Shown here: in pieces, positions 1,750-39,504 of the stretch
How the letters are laid out: every line of letters begins with the position of its first letter
How positions within the stretch are numbered: position 1 is the stretch's first letter
DNA from: a virus
Strand: one strand, 5' to 3'
Virus record (IMG/VR): IMGVR_UViG_3300028743_000013
Coordinates: 1-40,702 of that record
Length of the DNA: 40,702 nt
Position numbers and translations under genes: made by a program
The notes under the pieces: model-generated
Databases searched by the model: none
The model's input: only the letters and a program-made list of their open reading frames with translations
What the model was told of the DNA's origin: nothing

Positions 1750-1794
1750 TTAATATTGGTCTGTTTTTATATAAAATTACAAAATATAATAAAA

Positions 1795-3192
1795 ATGGCT
1801 GATTTATCAAAACTTATTAAACCTGATTGGTTAGAAATAACAGACGAATTTGAAAAGGCATATGATACTGTAACAACAGAAAACGGTGTGTTTTTTATAA
1901 CAGGTTCTGCGGGTTCAGGAAAATCTACGTTCCTAAAACTTTTATTATCAAACATGAAACTTGGTTCGTATGTTGTGCTTTCTCCTACAGGGGTTGCCGC
2001 CAACAACCTAAGAACAGATGGTATAGAATGTGAAACCATACATTCTTATTTTGGATTCCCACCTAAGCCTTTATTTCCGTGTAATATACATAAGCCAAAT
2101 GAAAATAGCTTAGAAAAGTATGCCATACCCGAAACATTAGTTATAGATGAAATATCAATGGTTTCATCTTTAATGCTTTCGGCAATAGACGAATTTTATA
2201 GAAAAGCACTTAATATAGACGAATTTTTTGGTGGAAAGAGGCTAATATTAGTTGGTGATTTATACCAATTACCACCTGTAATTTCAGATAAATCTGAAAT
2301 GGATTATATCAGGCATACATTTGGCTCAAAATACTTTTATTCAGCAAAACCATTTGAATTTGTACCAATTACAACCATAAATTTTACAAGAATTTTTAGA
2401 CAGAAAGATGAAAAATTTATTTCATTTTTAAATTCTATAAAATATGGCACAATAACACGTTCTCAGCTTAATGAACATAACCAAATTATGGTTCATAACG
2501 AAATTAAAGATGATGCCATTGTATTATGTACTTATAATAAGGATGTAGAATATTATAATAATAAAAAACTTGACGAAATAAGTTCAAAACCAATAACTTT
2601 GGTTGGTAAAGTAGAAGGAAATTTCAATGTTAAGCAATGTGCTGTTGACGAGGTAATAAAAATAAAAATAGGTGCTAGGGTTATGATTCGCTCAAATGAT
2701 AGAGAAAGCGGGCAATATATCAATGGAACTGTTGGAAAACTTATTAATTTTGATGGTGAGCTTATGGATGTTGAATTAGACAGCGGCTGTATTGTAAGTA
2801 TAGGCAAGGTTGAGTTCCATTCTGAAAAATATGAATTTGATAAATCATCTAATGAGGTTAGGTCTATGGGTACAGGAAAATTTATCCAATATCCAATATC
2901 CATAGGTTATGCCATGTCTATACATAAATCTCAGTCTTGTACTATTGAAGAATATGTCATAGATACAGGTGAAAGAGGAATATTCGACACGGGTCAGACA
3001 TATGTTGCCTTATCTAGATGTACTAAATTATCAGGTATAAAATTAAAAAGACCATTAGGAATTTCTGAAGTAATGGTTGATAATGCGGTTATGGAATTTA
3101 TGAGTAATGTAAATAAAAATGATGTTAAAGAATATAAGAAGGAATCGGATGGTTTTGGTGGTATATTCAATAATATAAATGGTCAATTTTAA
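1795..3192 (+). CDS. SF1B DNA helicase, Pif1/RecD2-like
   Basis: 465 residues from ATG 1795; a longer frame from 1756 has no good initiation context. Visible motifs: Walker A GSAGSGKST (37-45), motif Ia SPTGVAANN followed by TIHSYFGF (Pif1-type signature), Walker B VIDEISM (116-122), motif III GDLYQLPP, an arginine-bearing FRQKDEKF, and near the C-terminus AMSIHKSQS and YVALSRC (motifs V and VI). This is the ATP-dependent 5'-3' DNA helicase fold, also seen in T4 Dda. It sits just before the polymerase fragment (2 bp gap) and probably works at the replication fork or in recombination. Complete and intact. Confidence 0.9.
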   Translation: MADLSKLIKPDWLEITDEFEKAYDTVTTENGVFFITGSAGSGKSTFLKLLLSNMKLGSYVVLSPTGVAANNLRTDGIECETIHSYFGFPPKPLFPCNIHKPNENSLEKYAIPETLVIDEISMVSSLMLSAIDEFYRKALNIDEFFGGKRLILVGDLYQLPPVISDKSEMDYIRHTFGSKYFYSAKPFEFVPITTINFTRIFRQKDEKFISFLNSIKYGTITRSQLNEHNQIMVHNEIKDDAIVLCTYNKDVEYYNNKKLDEISSKPITLVGKVEGNFNVKQCAVDEVIKIKIGARVMIRSNDRESGQYINGTVGKLINFDGELMDVELDSGCIVSIGKVEFHSEKYEFDKSSNEVRSMGTGKFIQYPISIGYAMSIHKSQSCTIEEYVIDTGERGIFDTGQTYVALSRCTKLSGIKLKRPLGISEVMVDNAVMEFMSNVNKNDVKEYKKESDGFGGIFNNINGQF

Positions 3193-3194
3193 TC

Positions 3195-4412
3195 ATGGTA
3201 TATAATTTAGGTTTACAGTACTGCAGGTTTAAGCAAGGACAAGAGGTGACAGTACAAGAAATTAAAGATGAAATTATACGTCTTGAAAACTTGAGATTTA
3301 CCAAAAAGAGTGAGGATTTATCTTTGAAAAAAATCCTCAATTCAATATATGGTGTATTTGGCTTTAGTAATTTTGTACTATATGACAAATATGTTGCCTC
3401 ATCAATATCAACACAATCAGCTTATGTAATTAAATATACCAAATTTTGGTTCAATAAGTACTTTAAGGAAAGATTTCCATACATATACGATGTTCATAAA
3501 CAACTTGGAATAACAAAGGTAATACCTGTGACAGGTGATATTGTTATATATGGTGATACTGATTCCATATTTGTTAATTATGGCAAAATTATTAAGAATA
3601 CTGATTATAAAGGTAGCGTTCAAGATTTCATATTAAAATTAAACGAACTTGACATATATCCCGCACTTGGTCATATGCTTTCGTATTTTATCGGCTTACA
3701 TAATGGTTTACAGACAAGAATATCGGGTAAGCCATGTCTTAACTTAACATTTGAGCAAATAGTTGGTAAATTCCTTATTACCGCTAAAAAAAGGTATATT
3801 AAGGAATCATTATGGGCTGATGGTAATACTTTTGGAAGATATGAAAATGTAAAAGCCGTTGGTCTCGAAATAAATCAGGCATCTGTACCAAAATTTATAC
3901 GTAATAAATTGAAAGAGATTGTTATTGACTATATTATAAAAGTAGATAATATAGATTATGCGGTAATAATAGAAAAAGTAAAGCAAGTAAAGGAAGAATT
4001 TATACATACTGACATAATAAATGTCCTACCCGCACAAAGGGTAAACAATTTGGGTAAATACATTCTTGAAAGTTCAAACAATGAAATAAAGACAATTGCG
4101 GGTTCTCAGGCATATATGAGAGCAATAGCACAATATAATAATGAGATTTCCATGTCATCTAATGAGATAAAGCAAAAATATTCTATAATAAAATCGGGTG
4201 ATAAAGTTCAATGGTATTGGACATCAAATGCATCAACAGATGTGTTTGCCTTTCCGATAGGTGTAATACCACCTCAATTTTTGCAGAAGTTTCCTGTATC
4301 ATACGATGTACAATTTATGACTAATTATTTAGCATATTTAAATAGAATATTATCAGCAATAGGATTACAAGAAATACCTTCATCTTTAGTGACTTTTAAT
4401 TCGCTTTGGTAA
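3195..4412 (+). CDS. Family B DNA polymerase, C-terminal half of a split gp43
   Basis: 405 residues. Motif B LKKILNSIYG (44-53), motif C YGDTDS (119-124; catalytic Asp121 and Asp123), the KKRYI segment and a thumb with YMRAIAQYN follow the T4 gp43 order. The end, YDVQFMTNYL to the terminal FNSLW, resembles the gp43 tail that contacts the sliding clamp. Missing are the exonuclease domain, motif A and most of the fingers: the protein starts only about 45 residues before motif B. The upstream stop belongs to the helicase and no N-terminal half is visible in the window, so the partner must be encoded elsewhere. It starts directly in polymerase sequence, with no C-intein seen. Confidence 0.88.
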   Translation: MVYNLGLQYCRFKQGQEVTVQEIKDEIIRLENLRFTKKSEDLSLKKILNSIYGVFGFSNFVLYDKYVASSISTQSAYVIKYTKFWFNKYFKERFPYIYDVHKQLGITKVIPVTGDIVIYGDTDSIFVNYGKIIKNTDYKGSVQDFILKLNELDIYPALGHMLSYFIGLHNGLQTRISGKPCLNLTFEQIVGKFLITAKKRYIKESLWADGNTFGRYENVKAVGLEINQASVPKFIRNKLKEIVIDYIIKVDNIDYAVIIEKVKQVKEEFIHTDIINVLPAQRVNNLGKYILESSNNEIKTIAGSQAYMRAIAQYNNEISMSSNEIKQKYSIIKSGDKVQWYWTSNASTDVFAFPIGVIPPQFLQKFPVSYDVQFMTNYLAYLNRILSAIGLQEIPSSLVTFNSLW

Positions 4413-4510: not shown

Positions 4511-5017
4511 ATGGCTAACGAAAATATATACAGTACCGAAAGGGTAGAAGAAATATTAAAAGAATATAATAAAACGGGATACTTACCAAGGAACAACCCA
4601 TTTTATCTTAAAGATATAAGGAAAAGGAAAGGTTATTTACATTTCCAATATACCGATAAAGAAATAACAGAGCTTGCTAAATTACAAGCATCATGTCTAT
4701 ACTTTGCTAATAATTATGCATATTGTATGACAGATGATGGTATTCAACAGATAAAATTAAGACCATATCAATCAAGAGTGCTTAGACAATTTGAAAGCTA
4801 TAGATTTAATATATTTTTATCAAGTAGACAATCAGGTAAATGCTTGTCGGGTGATTCAATTATAACTGTTAATAACGAGAATATAACAATTAAGGATTTT
4901 TTCGAGAATATTTATTACTACAAAATAAATAAGCCTTTAGCATTTTTATTAAGAATTAAGAGATTTCTTCAAAGAAAAGTAAATAATCAAAAATTAATTA
5001 GTACATCAACCATATGA
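4511..5017 (+). CDS. Terminase large subunit N-terminal fragment fused to an N-intein
   Basis: 168 residues. Residues 1-110 look like the start of a T4 gp17-type packaging ATPase: LRPYQSRVLRQFESYRFNIF followed by the Walker A start SSRQSGK. Immediately after Lys110 comes CLSGDSIITV (from Cys111), a classic intein block A, then ITIKDFFENI. The frame stops at 5017 before any intein block B, and before the rest of the ATPase and nuclease domains. An intein at exactly this point of TerL is known from the split AceL-TerL intein. The simplest reading is a split gene whose C-intein plus TerL remainder lies outside this window; a truncated, dead gene is the alternative. ATG 4511 has the typical ATTATGGC context. 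Confidence 0.8.
   Translation: MANENIYSTERVEEILKEYNKTGYLPRNNPFYLKDIRKRKGYLHFQYTDKEITELAKLQASCLYFANNYAYCMTDDGIQQIKLRPYQSRVLRQFESYRFNIFLSSRQSGKCLSGDSIITVNNENITIKDFFENIYYYKINKPLAFLLRIKRFLQRKVNNQKLISTSTI
4841..5014 (+). mobile_element. N-terminal half of a split intein in TerL
   Basis: 58 codons from Cys111 to the terminal Ile168 of the terminase fragment. Cys1, the CLSGDS block A and the following short strand/helix pattern ITIKDFF match intein N-termini; AceL-TerL also starts Cys-x-x-Gly-Asp-Thr. No block B (TxxH) or endonuclease is present. The last 30 residues are basic and helix-like (LLRIKRFLQRK) and could help the two halves associate (inference). The stop overlaps the next gene's ATG (ATGA). 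Confidence 0.78.
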
Positions 5018-5427
5018 AAAAGTTAAAAATAAACGAGGATTGGAATCCAACAGATGTTGTCTATATTCAACAAAATTCATTATGGACATCATACTCTCCT
5101 GGCTCAGGAATGACAACCCAAATTGCGGGTGATCCCTATAAATTTAGAGGGTATCTTACCGATAAGCAAGGTGATGATCATTTTGATTCCAATGTGGCTA
5201 ATATAGCTAAATGGGCTGATAAACAGGAAGGTATAAAAGTTAAAGATGGTACTACATTATTTAAAATACCTTGTTATTGGGGATATAAACCTCAAAGGGA
5301 TTTGTCAATTTGGGGTGGTAATGTCAATCCTGATTATTATCTTTGGATGTCATTTACAAAAGCACCTAATTATAATCTTATTAATTTCTTTAAAACTAAA
5401 AACGAGGCTTTAGGGTTTCATAAGTAA
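5014..5427 (+). CDS. MKKLKI-tag protein 1, unknown function
   Basis: 137 residues, starting MKKLKINEDW. First of four adjacent genes with the same eight-residue N-terminus. The body is rich in Trp, Tyr, Gly and Pro (for example WKPQ-like and NVNPDYYLWMS segments) and gives no recognisable enzyme motif. Its ATG overlaps the TGA of the terminase-intein fragment, so it is translationally coupled to it. By analogy with the short capsid-targeting peptides of T4 internal proteins (MK..Y.EF..E), the tag may send the protein into the prohead, but that is inference. Confidence 0.7.
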   Translation: MKKLKINEDWNPTDVVYIQQNSLWTSYSPGSGMTTQIAGDPYKFRGYLTDKQGDDHFDSNVANIAKWADKQEGIKVKDGTTLFKIPCYWGYKPQRDLSIWGGNVNPDYYLWMSFTKAPNYNLINFFKTKNEALGFHK

Positions 5428-5432
5428 GTACT

Positions 5433-5684
5433 ATGAAAAAACTTAAAATTTTTGAAGGTGATGCTAACCCTGATACAGATATTACAAAAGAAAAGGTTAT
5501 TGCAAAATTGATTTCATCAGGAACTGATAAAAAGACTGCTGAAGATGTTGTAATGTACCATTATGACTATGTAATGGATTGCTTTGATAATTTGACCGTT
5601 AAAGAGGTTGCGTATAAAGCTTATGCTATATACAACAAGGAAATAGCTACTAAAGCGAAAAATGATGGAAACTATTACAATTAA
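5433..5684 (+). CDS. MKKLKIFE-tag protein 2, unknown function
   Basis: 83 residues, starting MKKLKIFEGD. After the tag and a short acidic linker comes a helical segment (KEKVIAKLISSG to YAIYNKEIATKA) without known motifs. Five bases separate it from the preceding gene. Small, soluble, and of the size of T4 internal head proteins. Function not recognised. Confidence 0.7.
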   Translation: MKKLKIFEGDANPDTDITKEKVIAKLISSGTDKKTAEDVVMYHYDYVMDCFDNLTVKEVAYKAYAIYNKEIATKAKNDGNYYN

Positions 5685-5699
5685 AAAATATAAATTATT

Positions 5700-5939
5700 A
5701 TGAAAAAATTAAAAATATTCGAAAACAATAATTCAGAATCCAAAAATATAAAGGATTTTAATAATGATACATTAAAATCTTTTTTGCAAAAATTACATGA
5801 AACTGATGATAAAATAGAGTTTAATAATGCAACAATGAAAGATGTTGATTATATATTGGGATTAGGGTGGGCTGTAAGCCATCCACAAGAAAAAGACATT
5901 GTTGGTGAGGTTTTTGATATAACAGTGTCAAATGATTAA
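5700..5939 (+). CDS. MKKLKIFE-tag protein 3, unknown function
   Basis: 79 residues, starting MKKLKIFENN. The DNA around its start (leader AAATTATT plus the first 24 coding bases) is nearly identical to that of the next gene, showing a recent duplication of the leader and tag. The rest (LKSFLQKLHETDDKIEF, VDYILGLGWAVSHP) is unrelated to its neighbours and not recognised. Confidence 0.7.
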   Translation: MKKLKIFENNNSESKNIKDFNNDTLKSFLQKLHETDDKIEFNNATMKDVDYILGLGWAVSHPQEKDIVGEVFDITVSND

Positions 5940-5951
5940 ATGTAAATTATT

Positions 5952-6269
5952 ATGAAAAAATTAAAAATATTCGAAAGCAATAATAATAGTAGAAATGACA
6001 AATACTTTACAACAATTCCTGATAATTTCGAGGGTGATATAAGATTTAGCTGCTTTGAAGGCTCTTATCCTTATATAGAACCTGTTGCTCTTAAAAATAC
6101 CACTTTGGAGAAAGCCAAAGAAGAGGCTACAAAAAAACTACAGGAACGGATGAATTACAGGAAGACGGATGAAAAATTATGGGCAAGGTTTGAAATAAAC
6201 AGCGATGGAAATAATGGCGATGGTACTTGGAAAGCTGATTCATCTAAAGACTTGGTTTTAAATCCTTAA
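5952..6269 (+). CDS. MKKLKIFE-tag protein 4, unknown function
   Basis: 105 residues, starting MKKLKIFESN, with an Asn/Ser-rich linker, then a compact body with FEGDIRFSCFEGSYPYIEPVA and a helix TTLEKAKEEATKKLQER. Last gene of the tagged cluster; a strong terminator follows 18 bases after its stop. Function not recognised. Confidence 0.7.
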   Translation: MKKLKIFESNNNSRNDKYFTTIPDNFEGDIRFSCFEGSYPYIEPVALKNTTLEKAKEEATKKLQERMNYRKTDEKLWARFEINSDGNNGDGTWKADSSKDLVLNP

Positions 6270-9768: not shown

Positions 9769-10758
9769 CTATATAGAAAAATCAGAAAATTTTCTAATAA
9801 ATTGTATATTTAAATTAATTTCCCTTGATATTTCTCTCTTCAAACAATCACGATTGTATGCAGAAATAGCACCTTTGTAATAATTACTAAATTCTGATTT
9901 TTCTTTCCATTTTTTAATCATTTCATTTCTTTCTTTCTCAGATAAATATTGTGGTTTATGTGTCCATATTCCATCATATTCTATAAACAAATCCAAAGAC
10001 TTGATATAAAAATCACAAGCAAATAAATATTTAGTTTCTTTACTATAATATCTTTTATCTCTATATTGACGAACAATATCTGAATATCCAAACAATTCTA
10101 TTAGATTATAATATATTTCATTCTCCTCTTTAGATTTTTCATAAGAACCATTTTTCTTTTTGGTTTCGTGTATTTTTGATATAGTACTTGATAGATATGA
10201 CATATTTCCTACACCATATCTTTCCAAACATGTTTTCTCATATTTTCCTTTGAATTCGTCAGTTTGTTGATACCATTCTACACCGTAAATTTTAAGATTT
10301 GTTTGCTTTGATTTTTCTACAAAATCTTCTATAAGCATATGATTTTCGACACCATATTTTTTCAAGCATGTTTCTTTATATTTTTCTTTATATTCATCAG
10401 TTTTGGAATAATTTTCGACACCATATTTTTCTAAACAAGTCAATTCTGCTTTTATATAATTTTTCTTACAATTGTCTGACCATTTTTCAGATGATTGAAA
10501 TTTTTTAGCACATATTTTTGAGCAGCAAACCTGATAACAGTATTTGTGTCTGTCAAAATTCGATTGCTTTCCACAAATTTCACAATATTGTATATTAAAA
10601 TTACTATTAATTATATGCCACATTCTTTGTTTTGGAGTTATGTGTTTGCAACTATCATCTAGAAATGAAGTTAATTCACATATTTTCCTAAATTCACATA
10701 TTTTAATACTTGATTTGTATGTGTTGTTATTATACCAATTTATTAAATCATTGTACAT
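9769..10758 (-). CDS. Homing endonuclease-like protein, Vsr/EDxHD type with zinc-finger and YGVEN repeats
   Basis: 329 residues on the minus strand, the only convincing reverse gene here. Residues about 58-85 carry a cysteine zinc finger (YCEICGKQSN ... CCSKICAKKF). Four repeats of about 26 residues follow, each with KYGVEN-like cores (CLEKYGVEN, CLKKYGVEN, NLKIYGVEW, CLERYGVGN), probably DNA-binding. The C-terminal domain has FACDFYIKSLDLFIEYDGIWTH: the E-x-D-G-x3-H pattern of Vsr-like/EDxHD homing nucleases. Such nucleases are known free-standing or associated with fractured, intein-split phage genes. It ends 8 bases from the tape-measure-like gene, suggesting insertion between genes. Target site unknown. 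Confidence 0.72.
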   Translation of the reverse strand: MYNDLINWYNNNTYKSSIKICEFRKICELTSFLDDSCKHITPKQRMWHIINSNFNIQYCEICGKQSNFDRHKYCYQVCCSKICAKKFQSSEKWSDNCKKNYIKAELTCLEKYGVENYSKTDEYKEKYKETCLKKYGVENHMLIEDFVEKSKQTNLKIYGVEWYQQTDEFKGKYEKTCLERYGVGNMSYLSSTISKIHETKKKNGSYEKSKEENEIYYNLIELFGYSDIVRQYRDKRYYSKETKYLFACDFYIKSLDLFIEYDGIWTHKPQYLSEKERNEMIKKWKEKSEFSNYYKGAISAYNRDCLKREISREINLNIQFIRKFSDFSI

Positions 10759-17510: not shown

Positions 17511-18161
17511 ATGGAAAAACAAATAATAAATATGGAAGGAGTTTTTGATAACTTTAATATGAAAGTCGGTGAGGTAAAGAAGCTTGGTTTGGCTAGGTTA
17601 TCAACTTTTGAATTTTCAAACAAGAAAAACCCATTATTTAACTTGAGAGCAATAAGAGATGGTGGGTTGAACTATATGAATGATGGTAAGTACATTAGAC
17701 TTAATGTTGACGGTGAGCTTATGATGACAGATACAAAAATGGAAATGGTTACAAATACCGATTTTTGTAATAATGCTAATGGTAGAGTTATGGTAGCTGG
17801 TCTTGGTATTGGTTTGATATTACAAAACATTAAAGACAAGGTTAAAAGCGGTGTAGTAACAGAGATTGTTATTATAGAAAAATATCAAGATGTAATAGAC
17901 CTTGTTTCACCAATTTATGCTGATATGCCAATAACCTATATTTGTGCCGATATTTTGGAATATAAGCCATTAAAAGACGAAATTTTCGACACAATTTATT
18001 TCGATATTTGGGCAATAGCTGATTTTGAGGTAAATTTACCTCAGATAAGTATGCTTCATAACAGGTGGAAATATAATAAAAATAAAAGCAATCCTAAATG
18101 TTGGATGAATTCTTGGATGCAAAAATGGATGCAAAAAGAAAATCGTGATTACAGAGCTTGA
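17511..18161 (+). CDS. SAM-dependent methyltransferase-like protein
   Basis: 216 residues from ATG 17511 (GAATAATGG), chosen over the upstream 17448, which lies in the terminator shoulder. Residues 91-102 (GRVMVAGLGIGL) are a glycine motif I, EIVIIEKYQDVI gives the acidic end of strand 2, CADILEY strand 3, and FDTIYFDIW strand 4. This is the order of Rossmann methyltransferases of the spermidine-synthase type. The substrate cannot be told. The tail has an odd tandem WMNSWMQKWMQK. Confidence 0.6.
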   Translation: MEKQIINMEGVFDNFNMKVGEVKKLGLARLSTFEFSNKKNPLFNLRAIRDGGLNYMNDGKYIRLNVDGELMMTDTKMEMVTNTDFCNNANGRVMVAGLGIGLILQNIKDKVKSGVVTEIVIIEKYQDVIDLVSPIYADMPITYICADILEYKPLKDEIFDTIYFDIWAIADFEVNLPQISMLHNRWKYNKNKSNPKCWMNSWMQKWMQKENRDYRA

Positions 18162-18183
18162 TCATAAATTAAGATATAAAATT

Positions 18184-18396
18184 ATGTCAGAAGTAAAAAT
18201 AAAATTAGTTGACAATAATATTGCTGTGGAATTCATCTTACAAAGGTTGTATTTCAGTGAATTTCAAATTATTGATGGACTAAATCAGCACCCTAATGGA
18301 ATCAATTTTTATAAATGGTTGCTTAATAATGATTTGATTTTAAAGGAAGAATATGACAGAATTACTGATAAAATACAATCTGAATATGATGAATAA
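18184..18396 (+). CDS. Small hypothetical protein
   Basis: 70 residues from ATG 18184 (AAAATTATG), inside a longer open frame. Helical, with LQRLYFSEFQIIDGLNQHPN and an acidic end. No motif recognised. Confidence 0.55.
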   Translation: MSEVKIKLVDNNIAVEFILQRLYFSEFQIIDGLNQHPNGINFYKWLLNNDLILKEEYDRITDKIQSEYDE

Positions 18397-18419
18397 TTAA
18401 TATTAATGCAAAATAAACT

Positions 18420-18884
18420 ATGAAAGAAATGAGTGATAATACTTTCGGTAGAGATTTTTATATTTCAGTTAATGAAAGTAAAAATCTTGTAATTATTTGT
18501 AAAAATCCTGAAACTCATTTAATAAGTTGGGATGATCTCTGTGATATGAAGAAACGTTATCTTTATAAAGTTGGTCAAAGGATACTAACACCATTTGGGA
18601 TTCAGACAATCAAGGATATCAAATATGATAATGGCACTATTCATGGTTATGAATGGCTGATTATGGTTGAGGAAAATGGAAATCAATACAAGCCGTGTGA
18701 ACTTATGGGTATAGTAAAGAAAACTATTACTTTACAAGATTTTAAATCTTTCATGCCCACAGATAAAGAACAAATAGAACATTTCACCTGTCATTATAAC
18801 AATTTAAATTGTCCATACATTAATATAGATGGACACTATACTAAACAATGTAATCGTTGTGAACATTATAAACCTCAATATTAA
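18420..18884 (+). CDS. Hypothetical protein with a Cys/His-rich C-terminus
   Basis: 154 residues. The N-terminal part looks beta-rich. The last 30 residues (HFTCHYNNLNCPYI ... QCNRCEHYK) hold four cysteines and several histidines, a probable zinc site. Some phage proteins of this size combine a short SH3-like barrel (VGQRILTPFGIQTIKDIKYD) with such a tail; the role is unknown. Confidence 0.6.
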   Translation: MKEMSDNTFGRDFYISVNESKNLVIICKNPETHLISWDDLCDMKKRYLYKVGQRILTPFGIQTIKDIKYDNGTIHGYEWLIMVEENGNQYKPCELMGIVKKTITLQDFKSFMPTDKEQIEHFTCHYNNLNCPYINIDGHYTKQCNRCEHYKPQY

Positions 18885-26021: not shown

Positions 26022-26095
26022 GCTCCCTTAGCTCAGTTGGTCAGAGCAAAACACTCATAATGTTGAGGTCATAGGTTCAAGTCCTGTAGGGAGCA
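26022..26095 (+). tRNA. tRNA with CAU anticodon (Met or Ile2)
   Basis: Acceptor GCTCCCT pairs with AGGGAGC; D stem GCTC/GAGC with loop AGTTGGTCA; anticodon loop CTCATAA (anticodon CAT); T arm ATAGG-TTCAAGT-CCTGT (one G-T). Discriminator A; CCA not encoded. The first anticodon-stem pair is A/G, slightly off. CAU may mean elongator Met, initiator, or Ile after lysidine modification; the 5' G-C pair argues against an initiator. Confidence 0.93.
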
Positions 26096-26223
26096 CAGAC
26101 TGTTTATTAGATACGACTATAGAGAGAATATTGCATCTCTCTAATCTATGAACGAAAGGATGGTTAGTCCCATCCTGAGAGATACAGGATAAAGAGTTAT
26201 TCTGATATAAAAAGTGAAAAATC
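26096..26223 (+). other. Spacer RNA between tRNA and tmRNA with two hairpins
   Basis: AGAGAGA...TCTCTCT and AGGATGG...CCATCCT form clear hairpins. No reading frame. Probably part of the precursor transcript from which tRNA and tmRNA are cut. Confidence 0.4.
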
Positions 26224-26577
26224 GGGGGTGCTTGGTTTTGATTGCGGTTTAGGGTGGTATAAGTTCAATGGAGATTATCAGTTCTCCTTTTAAAAAGGTA
26301 AACCAAATAACAGGCAAAAATACAATCAAATCATTGGGTAACAAGGTTATTGCAATGATATCTCCAAGAGTAGTAGCATTTGCTGCTTAAGGAAGCCTAA
26401 TTTAGTTTTTTAAAGTTTGCCGATGTCATAAATCGGATGGTGGACTGCACTGTTTCCAAACAGTACCCAAATTCTTATAAGATGCTGAAAGGTGGTAAGA
26501 TTAACCTCATGCACTAAGTTGTAAAAAGACTTGTATTAACCAATCGTAAGACGAGTGTTCGACTCACTCCACCTCCA
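26224..26577 (+). ncRNA. ssrA: tmRNA (ssrA), phage-encoded
   Basis: 354 bases. GGGGGTG at the 5' end pairs with CACCTCC at the 3' end (one G-T). The 5' part GGTTTTGATTGCGG resembles the tmRNA D-loop region. The T arm GAGTG-TTCGACT-CACTC directly abuts the acceptor. A tag frame runs from GGC at 26313 to TAA at 26390, preceded by TAACA, which has the T and A expected at -5 and -4 of the resume codon. The tag is 25 residues, from GKNTIKSLGN to SPRVVAFAA. CCA is not encoded. tmRNA frees stalled ribosomes and tags the product for proteolysis. A strong terminator follows. Confidence 0.92.
26313..26390 (+). other. tmRNA tag reading frame (25 codons plus TAA)
   Basis: Begins with Gly, as Bacteroidota tags commonly do, and ends VAFAA, close to the ALAA degron end. 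The length is well above the usual 9-12 residues, and the middle (NKVIAMI) is hydrophobic. Resume codon assigned by the upstream TAACA and by frame with the TAA. Confidence 0.75.
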
Positions 26578-26585
26578 CTTTAAGT

Positions 26586-36973: not shown

Positions 36974-37326
36974 CAATAACAAGTCTTTTTGGTTTGGAAT
37001 CAGATGACCCAAAACTAAAACTATTCCATGATACACGTGGAAACCCGAAAAAAGTTATATGTACAAAAGACAATCCAAGAAGCAGGTCTATTGAGCATCA
37101 TATATTTAAAAAAGGTGATATAGTTGTTGTTAATGGAACTGTTGGGGAAGGAGATAATTTTATGGTTTCTATTCCTGAGGTGTGTGGTTTTTATGATTAT
37201 ACTCATTTTGAATTGGTGGATGATGAAGAAATAAAATTATGTGAAAGCCACAGTACTTGTTGTTATCCGTTGGATTCAGGGGAAATATGTTTGCCATCTA
37301 AAGGATGTTTTACAAAAGGTATATAA
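36970..37326 (+). CDS. Hypothetical protein with a Cys-rich tail
   Basis: 118 residues. The centre (KGDIVVVNGTVGEGDNFMVS) looks like a small beta barrel. The last 30 residues hold five cysteines (LCESHSTCCYPLDSGEICL, GCF). Not recognised. Confidence 0.56.
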   Translation: MTITSLFGLESDDPKLKLFHDTRGNPKKVICTKDNPRSRSIEHHIFKKGDIVVVNGTVGEGDNFMVSIPEVCGFYDYTHFELVDDEEIKLCESHSTCCYPLDSGEICLPSKGCFTKGI

Positions 37327-37347
37327 TAATTTTAAAATATATAAACA

Positions 37348-37776
37348 ATGGAAGCCATAGTACAATTAAGAAAATCAGAATATGACACTCTTGTTGAATC
37401 TGCAAGCTTGAGTATTAAAAATATAGAAAGGAAAGCTCAAGAACTCTATGAAGAAAATGGAACTTTTGCAATAAAGATTGAACTTGATGTTCAAGAGAAC
37501 TATCATAGTGATATAACCTTTAAAGCAAGTAGCTATGTAAAGGATTGGGATAATAAATTTCCTATATCAGACGATGACAAACGAAAGATAGTTAAATTCG
37601 TGAATTATAAAGCCAAAGACTTACTTGTCAGAAAATTCGGTAAGCAAATAGCCAATGTCAATTTTTATAATGATGAAATTAAAAAGCTTAATATTGCTAG
37701 GAATTCATCGATGATTTTTACTATTACGGGTTGGCTTGCCGCTTTGACTTTGGTTTTAATATCAATATTGAAGTAA
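37348..37776 (+). CDS. Tail-anchored membrane protein, unknown function
   Basis: 142 residues. An N-terminal helix (KSEYDTLVESASLSIKNIER), a charged middle, and one C-terminal membrane segment (SSMIFTITGWLAALTLVLIS, about residues 120-139). It would sit in the inner membrane with most of its mass in the cytoplasm. A terminator follows. Confidence 0.6.
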   Translation: MEAIVQLRKSEYDTLVESASLSIKNIERKAQELYEENGTFAIKIELDVQENYHSDITFKASSYVKDWDNKFPISDDDKRKIVKFVNYKAKDLLVRKFGKQIANVNFYNDEIKKLNIARNSSMIFTITGWLAALTLVLISILK

Positions 37777-37791
37777 ATACGCTAATTAAGC

Positions 37792-37830
37792 AAAGAGGAC
37801 TGAATACATACATTCAGTCCTCTTTATATG
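37792..37830 (+). terminator. Intrinsic terminator
   Basis: AAAGAGGACTGAAT and ATTCAGTCCTCTTT form a perfect 14-bp stem around ACATAC, followed by ATAT. Confidence 0.85.
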
Positions 37831-37928
37831 TCACCCAAGGTCACACGATATATTTTCCTTCAATTTTCGTACTTATAATCCTATTAAAACCTTTTTAAGT
37901 TTTCAATTATAAAAAGGAAAATCTTTAT

Positions 37929-38153
37929 ATGGATGCAATTATAACTATTACTTTAGATCAATTAAAATCTTTATTAGATCAACAAATAGAGATTACTATT
38001 GAAAAATGTATGTCCCAAACAAGTTATTACAATGATGAAAGCACAGACAGCTGTTCTAAATCTTTGCCTATAAATAAGGAAAGATTTTATAAAAATGGTC
38101 GTAATTCAAAATATCCAAATGATTTCATAGTTCTATCGAAATATCTTAAGTGA
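37929..38153 (+). CDS. Small hypothetical protein
   Basis: 74 residues. A helical start (TLDQLKSLLDQQIEITIEKC) followed by a Ser/Asn-rich, basic tail. Short gene-free DNA (about 100 bases) precedes it, probably with a promoter that I cannot pinpoint. Confidence 0.52.
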   Translation: MDAIITITLDQLKSLLDQQIEITIEKCMSQTSYYNDESTDSCSKSLPINKERFYKNGRNSKYPNDFIVLSKYLK

Positions 38154-38204
38154 TAATATAAATTGATTAAAAATATAAATTATTAAACCTCTAATACAAT
38201 TGAT

Positions 38205-38489
38205 ATGAATAATCCATTTTACTATTTACATGTTTGGTTCAGCAGACATCTGCTAGGTTTTTGCCCTGAGTGTAATTCATCATCACCTAAAATGTATGGT
38301 TGTCCTGTATGTCATCATGATAGAACAGCACCTTTTGACAAAAAGAAATCACATTCATATTGGTTACGTTGGCGGGTACTGCATGGATATACTCATGTTC
38401 ATTATACTAAAGAGGAAAGAGCGTTTATAATGTCAATATTGTTGGATACCCCTGTTGAACAGCACTATTATAATTTTAATCAATTGTAA
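38205..38489 (+). CDS. Small zinc-ribbon protein
   Basis: 94 residues. FCPECNSSSPKMYGCPVCHH is a C-x2-C ... C-x2-C ribbon. It is followed by a basic helix with SYWLRWRVLHGYTHVH. Possibly nucleic-acid binding. Not recognised further. Confidence 0.6.
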   Translation: MNNPFYYLHVWFSRHLLGFCPECNSSSPKMYGCPVCHHDRTAPFDKKKSHSYWLRWRVLHGYTHVHYTKEERAFIMSILLDTPVEQHYYNFNQL

Positions 38490-38495
38490 ATATTT

Positions 38496-38609
38496 ATGTT
38501 TTACTTAGCACATTTAAGAGTTACAAAATATTATGAAGACTTAAGTACACCTTATTATAAATCATATGAGATTGATAACTATATAAGCATAAATGCAATA
38601 ATTTCCTAA
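38496..38609 (+). CDS. 37-residue hypothetical peptide
   Basis: MFYLAHLRVTKYYEDLSTPY and 17 more residues, starting at TTTATG 6 bases after the preceding stop and ending 19 bases before the next gene. Position supports it; no motif. Confidence 0.4.
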   Translation: MFYLAHLRVTKYYEDLSTPYYKSYEIDNYISINAIIS

Positions 38610-38628
38610 TATAATAAACTTTACCGAT

Positions 38629-39504
38629 ATGATTGATACCGATAATAAAATAGAAAATTTAAGGAGTTTATTTAAACATTTATTTGAATTTTGTGATAAT
38701 GAGTGGGTTTCTGTAAAAGATCATCCTTTAACACCAATCTATAATATGTTTGGATTGGATAAATCATGGAGTGAGGCTATAATGTTTGTTTTGAGTAATT
38801 GTAATGAGTTCGCAATATCTAATGATGGTGGAAATATAAGATATAGGTCTAAAACCTCTGTAACTCCAAATTATACAAAATTAATTGGTGATGTGGTTAA
38901 GTATTTCGAACCTGTTGCTATTGATACAAAGCTTGTTAAATACGAAGTTCGTAAATATTATAATAAAACCGACACCGTGAATAATAAATTAAATAGTTCA
39001 CCACCAATGATATTCCTTAACGAAAATGATAAGCAACAAGTTTTTAGAGTAAAACGCAAATATGTACATAAGGTAAAGCCACTTGATTTAGATTCTATAC
39101 ATATATCAAGCAACACACAACCTAAGGTATTCCTTGATTTAAATGAAAAATTCATACAACCTATTAAAGAAAAACGTAAATATGTACATAAGGTAAATAC
39201 CTCTGAATTTAAAGACAATATTCCACCTATGCATGGTAATGATACTGCATCCCCTAATGGAGAATCTAATACAAATATACCATATAAAACACATTTTAAT
39301 GTGGATGATATTTGCTATACTGTTTATGATAATAAAATTATTGAAATGGAAATTGTTGGTGTCAATAAAAAGGGTAAAGATTATTTGCATAATCTTTATA
39401 ACGATGAATACAAAATCGATGTGTTTGATATGTTGGTAACTGATTTACATGATTCCCCTGAATCTTTATGTGCAAAATTGTTACAAAATTATAAAAACAA
39501 ATGA
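38629..39504 (+). CDS. Hypothetical protein with basic repeats, possibly DNA-binding
   Basis: 291 residues. The N-terminal domain is helical. The middle holds two 40-residue repeats, each ending KRKYVHKV (DNA 39053 and 39173), which look like basic hooks. The C-terminal domain (THFNVDDICYTVYDNKIIEM, then EIVGVNKKGKDYLHNLYNDE) resembles a small barrel common in phage proteins. Nucleic-acid binding is inference. Confidence 0.58.
   Translation: MIDTDNKIENLRSLFKHLFEFCDNEWVSVKDHPLTPIYNMFGLDKSWSEAIMFVLSNCNEFAISNDGGNIRYRSKTSVTPNYTKLIGDVVKYFEPVAIDTKLVKYEVRKYYNKTDTVNNKLNSSPPMIFLNENDKQQVFRVKRKYVHKVKPLDLDSIHISSNTQPKVFLDLNEKFIQPIKEKRKYVHKVNTSEFKDNIPPMHGNDTASPNGESNTNIPYKTHFNVDDICYTVYDNKIIEMEIVGVNKKGKDYLHNLYNDEYKIDVFDMLVTDLHDSPESLCAKLLQNYKNK

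Follow-up and report, generated by a model that had tools for sequence, protein, structure and literature searches.

The window that we analyzed is a viral DNA stretch of 40,702 nucleotides (IMG/VR record IMGVR_UViG_3300028743_000013), and one of its genes, polC, encodes just the C-terminal half of a family-B DNA polymerase (PolB). Where is the other half, do the two parts still make up a replicative enzyme, and how did the gene come to be in pieces?

The two parts of the gene and their neighbors

The product of polC (Table 1) matched DNA_pol_B from Pfam (E = 1.7e-14) and, over residues 16-392, phrog_1918, a DNA polymerase family of 382 positions. It covered another family, phrog_262 (856 positions), at positions 494-840 only. 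This bears out an earlier sequence-only reading of the window, which had described a split polymerase with only the part from before motif B present. That reading also described motifs B, C, and KKRY as intact, and across seven aligned rows, one of which is the intact enzyme of Flavobacterium phage MaF61, K45, N49, Y52, and G53 of motif B, Y119 and D121-S124 of motif C, and K198, K199, and Y201 of KKRY do not vary. The family matches and the invariant motifs rule out a chance open reading frame. (We take the names motif A, motif B, motif C, and KKxY to apply to these polymerase residues.)

The window's record is a 40.7-kb fragment, and the N-terminal half was read in other contigs. The C-terminal half is encoded at seven IMG/VR loci, with 75-100% identity. 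We relied mostly on G007, a 125-kb contig whose polC DNA is identical to the window's, and G004, a 167-kb relative that is 75% identical. Both encode polN (492 aa), which is the exonuclease and motif A half that was proposed to lie elsewhere in the genome. polN matches phrog_2062 over residues 2-491, and D99, E101, D204, Y309, and D313 of the exonuclease and D397 of motif A are invariant in a 10-row alignment. Together they have the motifs of a gp43-type PolB: the exonuclease motifs and motif A are in polN, and motifs B, C, and KKxY are in polC. The two genes are on opposite strands in both contigs, about 37 kb apart in G007 and about 41 kb apart in G004.

On the polC side, the gene order is helicase, polC, and then terN, the first piece of the terminase large subunit (TerL). 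(Genomes of the G004 type have a methyltransferase-like gene between the helicase and polC; it was recognized by eye, is at 90606-91184 of G004, and is absent from the window's type.) On the polN side, the order is C-intein-terC, two small ORFs (three in G004), polN, GroES, and GroEL. These orders are consistent in the window and in all of the contigs that we fetched for the genus, within each contig's reach. The break had been described as adjoining a helicase and lying near a second fractured gene, and indeed the helicase's stop is 2 nt from the start of polC in the window and the TerL piece is downstream. The neighbors had also been called complete, which holds for the helicase upstream but not for the terminase piece.

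Several other features of these regions drew our attention. By eye, polC in the window and polN in G007 and G004 lack a purine-rich ribosome-binding site upstream; our guess is that this would fit a host from the Bacteroidota. A tRNA-Met (CAT) and a tmRNA (RF00023, 70.6 bits) are side by side at 26022-26578 of the window. Four successive small ORFs at 5014-6269 share the start MKKLKI..., and small ORFs at three huge-phage or aquatic loci (L048, L055, and L142) start in much the same way. The shared start is possibly a capsid-targeting leader, which we presume to be like that of the internal proteins of T4.

Within the window's genus, TerL is putatively split by a split intein. As we read the junction, Cys1 follows the Walker A Lys, the C-intein ends in His-Asn before a Ser, and the N part is short. 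The C-intein partner is 1-2 kb upstream of polN in the relatives, and its match to Pfam's Intein_splicing (E = 2.7e-4) is below the family cut-off. A second break in TerL, before the nuclease domain, has no intein. Among the genes of MaF61, only those for the polymerase (two pieces) and TerL (three pieces) correspond to more than one separate ORF in G004 and G007. When we searched 17 records of relatives, TerL was an open frame of 587-635 residues in 12 of the 13 with a match. In LR756500, terN, an endonuclease-like ORF, and terC are consecutive, which looks like an undispersed stage. Because polC adjoins terN and C-intein-terC lies near polN, the same two broken genes are found at both sites, and one event may have dispersed both of them. 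(Dassa et al. reportedly discussed fractured genes in 2009.)

Table 1. Location of the features discussed (positions refer to the window unless a contig is given).
Feature	Location	Strand	Remarks
polC, C-terminal half of family-B DNA polymerase	3195..4412	+	405 aa; fingers helix P, palm motifs B and C, KKRY, thumb
Long predicted helix, polC residues 20-54, read as fingers helix P	3252..3356	+	From the model; low confidence from residue 34; RB69 gp43 register
Motif B, polC residues 45-53	3327..3353	+	Invariant alignment columns
Motif C, polC residues 119-124	3549..3566	+	Invariant alignment columns
KKRY, polC residues 198-201	3786..3797	+	Invariant columns K198, K199, Y201
Dda-like helicase, complete, directly upstream of polC	1756..3192	+	TTG start at 1756; in-frame ATG at 1798
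terN, N-terminal piece of TerL	4511..4840	+	110 aa, to the Walker A lysine
Putative N-intein fragment	4841..5014	+	58 aa; atypically split intein; together with terN spans 4511-5017
DUF7487-type homing-endonuclease-like gene	9769..10758	-	Relatives adjoin polN in LR756500 and (by eye) in Lak phages
polN in G007	37164-38642	-	PolB match
polC in G007	75674-76891	+	DNA equals the window's C-terminal half
polN in G004	131677-133158	+	PolB match
polC in G004	89387-90604	-	PolB match
C-intein-terC in G004	129227-130303		Rest of TerL ATPase
C-intein-terC in G007	39500-40711		Rest of TerL ATPase
TerL nuclease-domain gene in G004	151754-152593		Without intein
TerL nuclease-domain gene in G007	18012-18848		Without intein

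The break point and how the halves might be joined

When aligned to RB69 gp43, the polN profile corresponds to residues 74-503 and the polC profile to residues 526-886, which places the break within 504-525, at the tip of the fingers. The structural model of polN (mean pLDDT 84.2) terminates in a helix at residues 458-491. The model of polC (mean pLDDT 66.8) starts with a helix at residues 20-54, and its segments 34-74 and 172-228 are under 50. These are, in our reading, the antiparallel helix pair of the fingers, which we take to be helix N in polN and helix P in polC. With the break between two antiparallel helices, the palm and the fingers hairpin could form by association, without any splicing. 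The poor model of polC fits the absence of its partner, but the thin alignment (17 rows) would account for it equally well. The top Foldseek matches of both models were RB69 or T4 gp43. The superposition was poor for polC (query TM of 0.35-0.47 among the 50 matches listed), as expected for a chain that lacks its partner and also for a weak model.

We put at roughly 85% the probability that polC and polN form the replicative PolB as a non-covalent heterodimer and that the split at the fingers tip was inherited from one early fission. Heterodimer formation, activity, and the single origin are what we infer from the sequences. polN would supply the N-terminal domain, the 3'-5' exonuclease, motif A of the palm, and fingers helix N, while polC would supply fingers helix P, motifs B and C, KKRY, and the thumb; the two chains would associate without splicing to form a common palm and fingers hairpin. 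The fission would date to the early history of a large, mostly uncultured clade in which aquatic and gut phages predominate. Its products would have been near each other at first and would later have been separated several times, coming to be on opposite strands in the window's genus.

Could the chains be joined by splicing instead? If polN ended and polC began with cryptic halves of a split intein, then the polymerase would be assembled by protein trans-splicing, as TerL apparently is in the same genomes. Also, polC has a further break, at motif C and with intein-like ends, in LR756500 (L158) and Lak-A2 (L157), and for Pseudomonas phage MIJ3, PolB is reported to be encoded by two ORFs that flank an HNH endonuclease, a split that was attributed to an intein (PMC6892783). 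polN and polC are likewise two ORFs, but unlike MIJ3's PolB, they have no intein that we could find. Neither gene has an intein family match. Because Pfam also misses the N-intein of TerL, that test is weak by itself, and the length argument weighs most: polN stops 22-23 residues past the conserved Arg of the fingers and polC starts 48 residues before the Asn of motif B, which leaves no spare length for an intein. The sequence-only reading saw no C-intein at polC and proposed association without splicing, with an N-intein at the end of polN as something to check; with neither intein nor intron found, association is the explanation that we rate best, and trans-splicing seems very improbable. 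Joining at the RNA level, through a split group I or group II intron, is extremely improbable. Such genes commonly carry introns, and a group IA2 intron is annotated in 43B of Aeromonas phage 25, but the halves leave little room for one: polC follows the helicase so closely in the window, it abuts the methyltransferase-like gene in the 75% relative, and GroES begins within about 12 nt after polN. Furthermore, Rfam yielded only the tRNA and the tmRNA across the window and six loci around both halves.

Alternatively, since essential genes in fragments can be a sign of decay, the polymerase might be a degenerate relic that is being lost while an enzyme from the host or another phage replicates the genome. 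This has very little chance of being correct, as both halves are intact and the catalytic residues are kept in distant relatives. Between G007 and G004, dN/dS (by NG86) is 0.060 for polN and 0.082 for polC, as compared to 0.070 for the helicase, 0.101 for the portal protein, and 0.121 for GroEL; these values are rough because dS exceeds 1 and is saturated. Judging from these ratios, both polN and polC evolve under purifying selection. Nor did we find a replacement. An intact polymerase elsewhere had been named as the finding that would make polC a relic, and there is no such PolB in the 125-kb and 167-kb relatives, neither of which has a family match for PolA or PolIII. Across seven records, there was no third PolB match at E ≤ 10 beyond the two halves. 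The ends of G004 overlap by 120 bp (97.5% identity), which suggests a complete genome, and it is as long as the complete genome of MaF61 (167.8 kb), so G004 is probably near complete. G007 may be incomplete, in which case a further polymerase could be encoded in its missing part.

Distribution and history of the split

A scan with the polN alignment confirmed at least 528 relatives from the environment. We considered the best 80 of these, which correspond to 79 loci; this sample is biased towards close relatives because it was selected by similarity to polN, and it includes near-duplicates (such as L088, L090, and L091). Among these best 80 of at least 528, the polN ORF ends in the fingers at 78 of 79 loci; L074 has an intact gene. 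All 78 split polN in the best-80 sample end 22-33 residues (median 23) past the conserved Arg. In the same best 80, we found polC at 43 of the 78 split loci (4 of them cut by the end of the contig), always on polN's strand and 808-5749 bp downstream, and all 43 start 42-54 residues (median 44) before the Asn of motif B. The 35 loci of the best 80 without polC include six from the window's own genus, and many of them stop soon after polN.

We also searched 17 longer records and detected polC in 14 of them, including the intact gene of L074, but missed it in 3. In six of these 14, polN and polC share a strand and are separated by about 10-19 kb. In several aquatic members, the genes for the small and large subunits of ribonucleotide reductase (RNR) are between the halves, and UvsX and a gp41-type helicase follow polC. 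Aquatic relatives also encode a conserved protein of about 249 aa immediately upstream of polC. That this might be a sliding clamp was only a suspicion: profile searches of PHROG and PDB gave no match for it, and comparisons to T4 gp45 and to G004's counterpart of the annotated clamp of MaF61 gave nothing.

The split is at the same point in two cultured phages, Sphingomonas phage PAU and Tenacibaculum phage pT24, in Lak phages, and in huge phages, and there was a polC match in all nine of the named jumbo or huge phage records. The two genes share a strand in pT24, PAU, and LR756500; in LR756504, LR756502, LR745206, LR756501, Lak-A1, and Lak-A2, they are on opposite strands. In LR756500, an ORF that resembles the DUF7487-type homing endonucleases (by eye) directly precedes the second piece of polC.

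Was the gene broken just once in these phages? We built trees for the N-terminal half (44 rows) and the C-terminal half (26 rows), and a mixture-model tree of 35 rows after dropping 9 near-duplicates from the former; some deep branches are weakly supported, and pT24 and PAU sit on long branches. With a support of 100, the intact polymerases of MaF61 and L074 group next to the window's genus as its sisters, nested among the split lineages. It might be that their intact state is ancestral and that the same break at the fingers tip arose in parallel, which would require at least five independent fissions at one spot (by our count on the N-terminal tree). This bears on the history and not on the heterodimer. 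Aeromonas phage 25 shows that the spot can be hit independently, and homing-endonuclease-like genes are immediately 3' of polN in LR756500, Lak-A1, and Lak-C1, so a recurrent cause is thinkable. (In the window's genus, there is no homing endonuclease at either end of the break.) Against this, the fewest changes come to only three: a fission in phage 25, a fission at the base of the clade, and one re-fusion. A single all-split clade that excludes MaF61 and L074 was rejected (p-AU = 0.0049 for the N-terminal half with 35 rows, 0.0029 after removing pT24, PAU, and Lak to leave 32 rows, and 0.0034 for the C-terminal half with 26 rows), although these values are weakened because we named the groups after seeing the first tree. 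Also, from the conserved Arg to motif B, there are 69-70 residues in the two intact relatives, which is similar to the sum for the halves (66-75 across 16 split pairs), as an end-to-end joining of the halves would predict, and unlike the 40 residues in two cyanophage-type enzymes or the 81 in T4. Because MaF61 and L074 are nested inside the split clade, re-fusion is likelier than repeated fission. We consider parallel fissions to be unlikely, and a re-fusion of the halves in the branch leading to MaF61 and L074 to be probable given the tree and the spacing.

We also considered whether a single inversion, of the segment from polN to the helicase, dispersed the halves, as undoing it would place polN directly before polC on one strand. 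This idea is disfavored because the polymerase is beside GroES and GroEL in MaF61 and L074 as well, unlike the order before such an inversion, and we found no intermediate genome.

Known split systems and implications

That T4-related Aeromonas phages have a split gene 43 was pointed out in the sequence-only reading, and the comparison is apt. Like polN and polC, 43A and 43B of phages 25 and 44RR are of the gp43 type, are encoded by two ORFs, and have no intein at the break, which is at the fingers tip; for phage 25, we found it to be at the same place. 43A and 43B of phage 25 are reported to co-purify and to have polymerase activity (PMC2988022). There are differences as well. 43A and 43B are near neighbors on one strand, with a homing endonuclease between them in phage 25, while polN and polC are far apart on opposite strands in the window's genus, and neither end has an endonuclease there. 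Since phage 25 is beside T4 in our tree, far from the window, the two fissions are separate events.

Other split phage genes bear on the neighboring terminase. Atypical split inteins of the AceL-TerL and GOS-TerL kind are described with N fragments as short as 25 and 37 aa (PMC11766414). In the window's genus, the putative intein of TerL similarly combines a short N part, of 58 aa, with a long C part, in a neighbor of the polymerase rather than in the polymerase itself. For the Jug phages, PMC12363816 reports that terL is in 2-3 fragments, which are ascribed to group I introns, and that the DNA polymerase is often split by intervening endonuclease sequences; unlike in the terL of those phages, we found no group I intron around the window's polymerase halves. 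The halves are already separate public families (phrog_2062 and phrog_1918), but these are labelled just "DNA polymerase" and do not state that the enzyme is split. In the open-licence literature, we found no description of a clade-wide split PolB or of a re-fusion. Thus, split gp43 was already known, from a few Aeromonas phages, and what is new is the inheritance of the split across a clade, the repeated unlinking of the halves, their probable re-fusion, and the way in which they are interleaved with the pieces of a broken terminase.

A broader history could be right or wrong with about equal chances: across aquatic phages, pT24, PAU, Lak, and the huge phages of 462-735 kb, PolB might have been an obligate two-subunit enzyme for most of the clade's history, with one cut, repeated unlinking, some cuts at motif C, at least one re-fusion (in the branch leading to MaF61 and L074), and joint dispersal of the polymerase and the terminase. 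If the re-fusion is true, then a gene fission was undone in an enzyme at the core of replication, which would be a rare event. Half polymerases in such genomes should not be annotated as pseudogenes, and marker-gene trees that require a full-length PolB will miss the split clade. Overall, the two-piece state looks to be ancestral for a broad clade instead of being local to the window. The split clade provides a set of natural replicates in which to ask what is lost or gained by cutting the fingers at their tip, be it in fidelity, in dNTP binding, in escape from inhibitors or host defenses, or in the control of replication through the supply of subunits.
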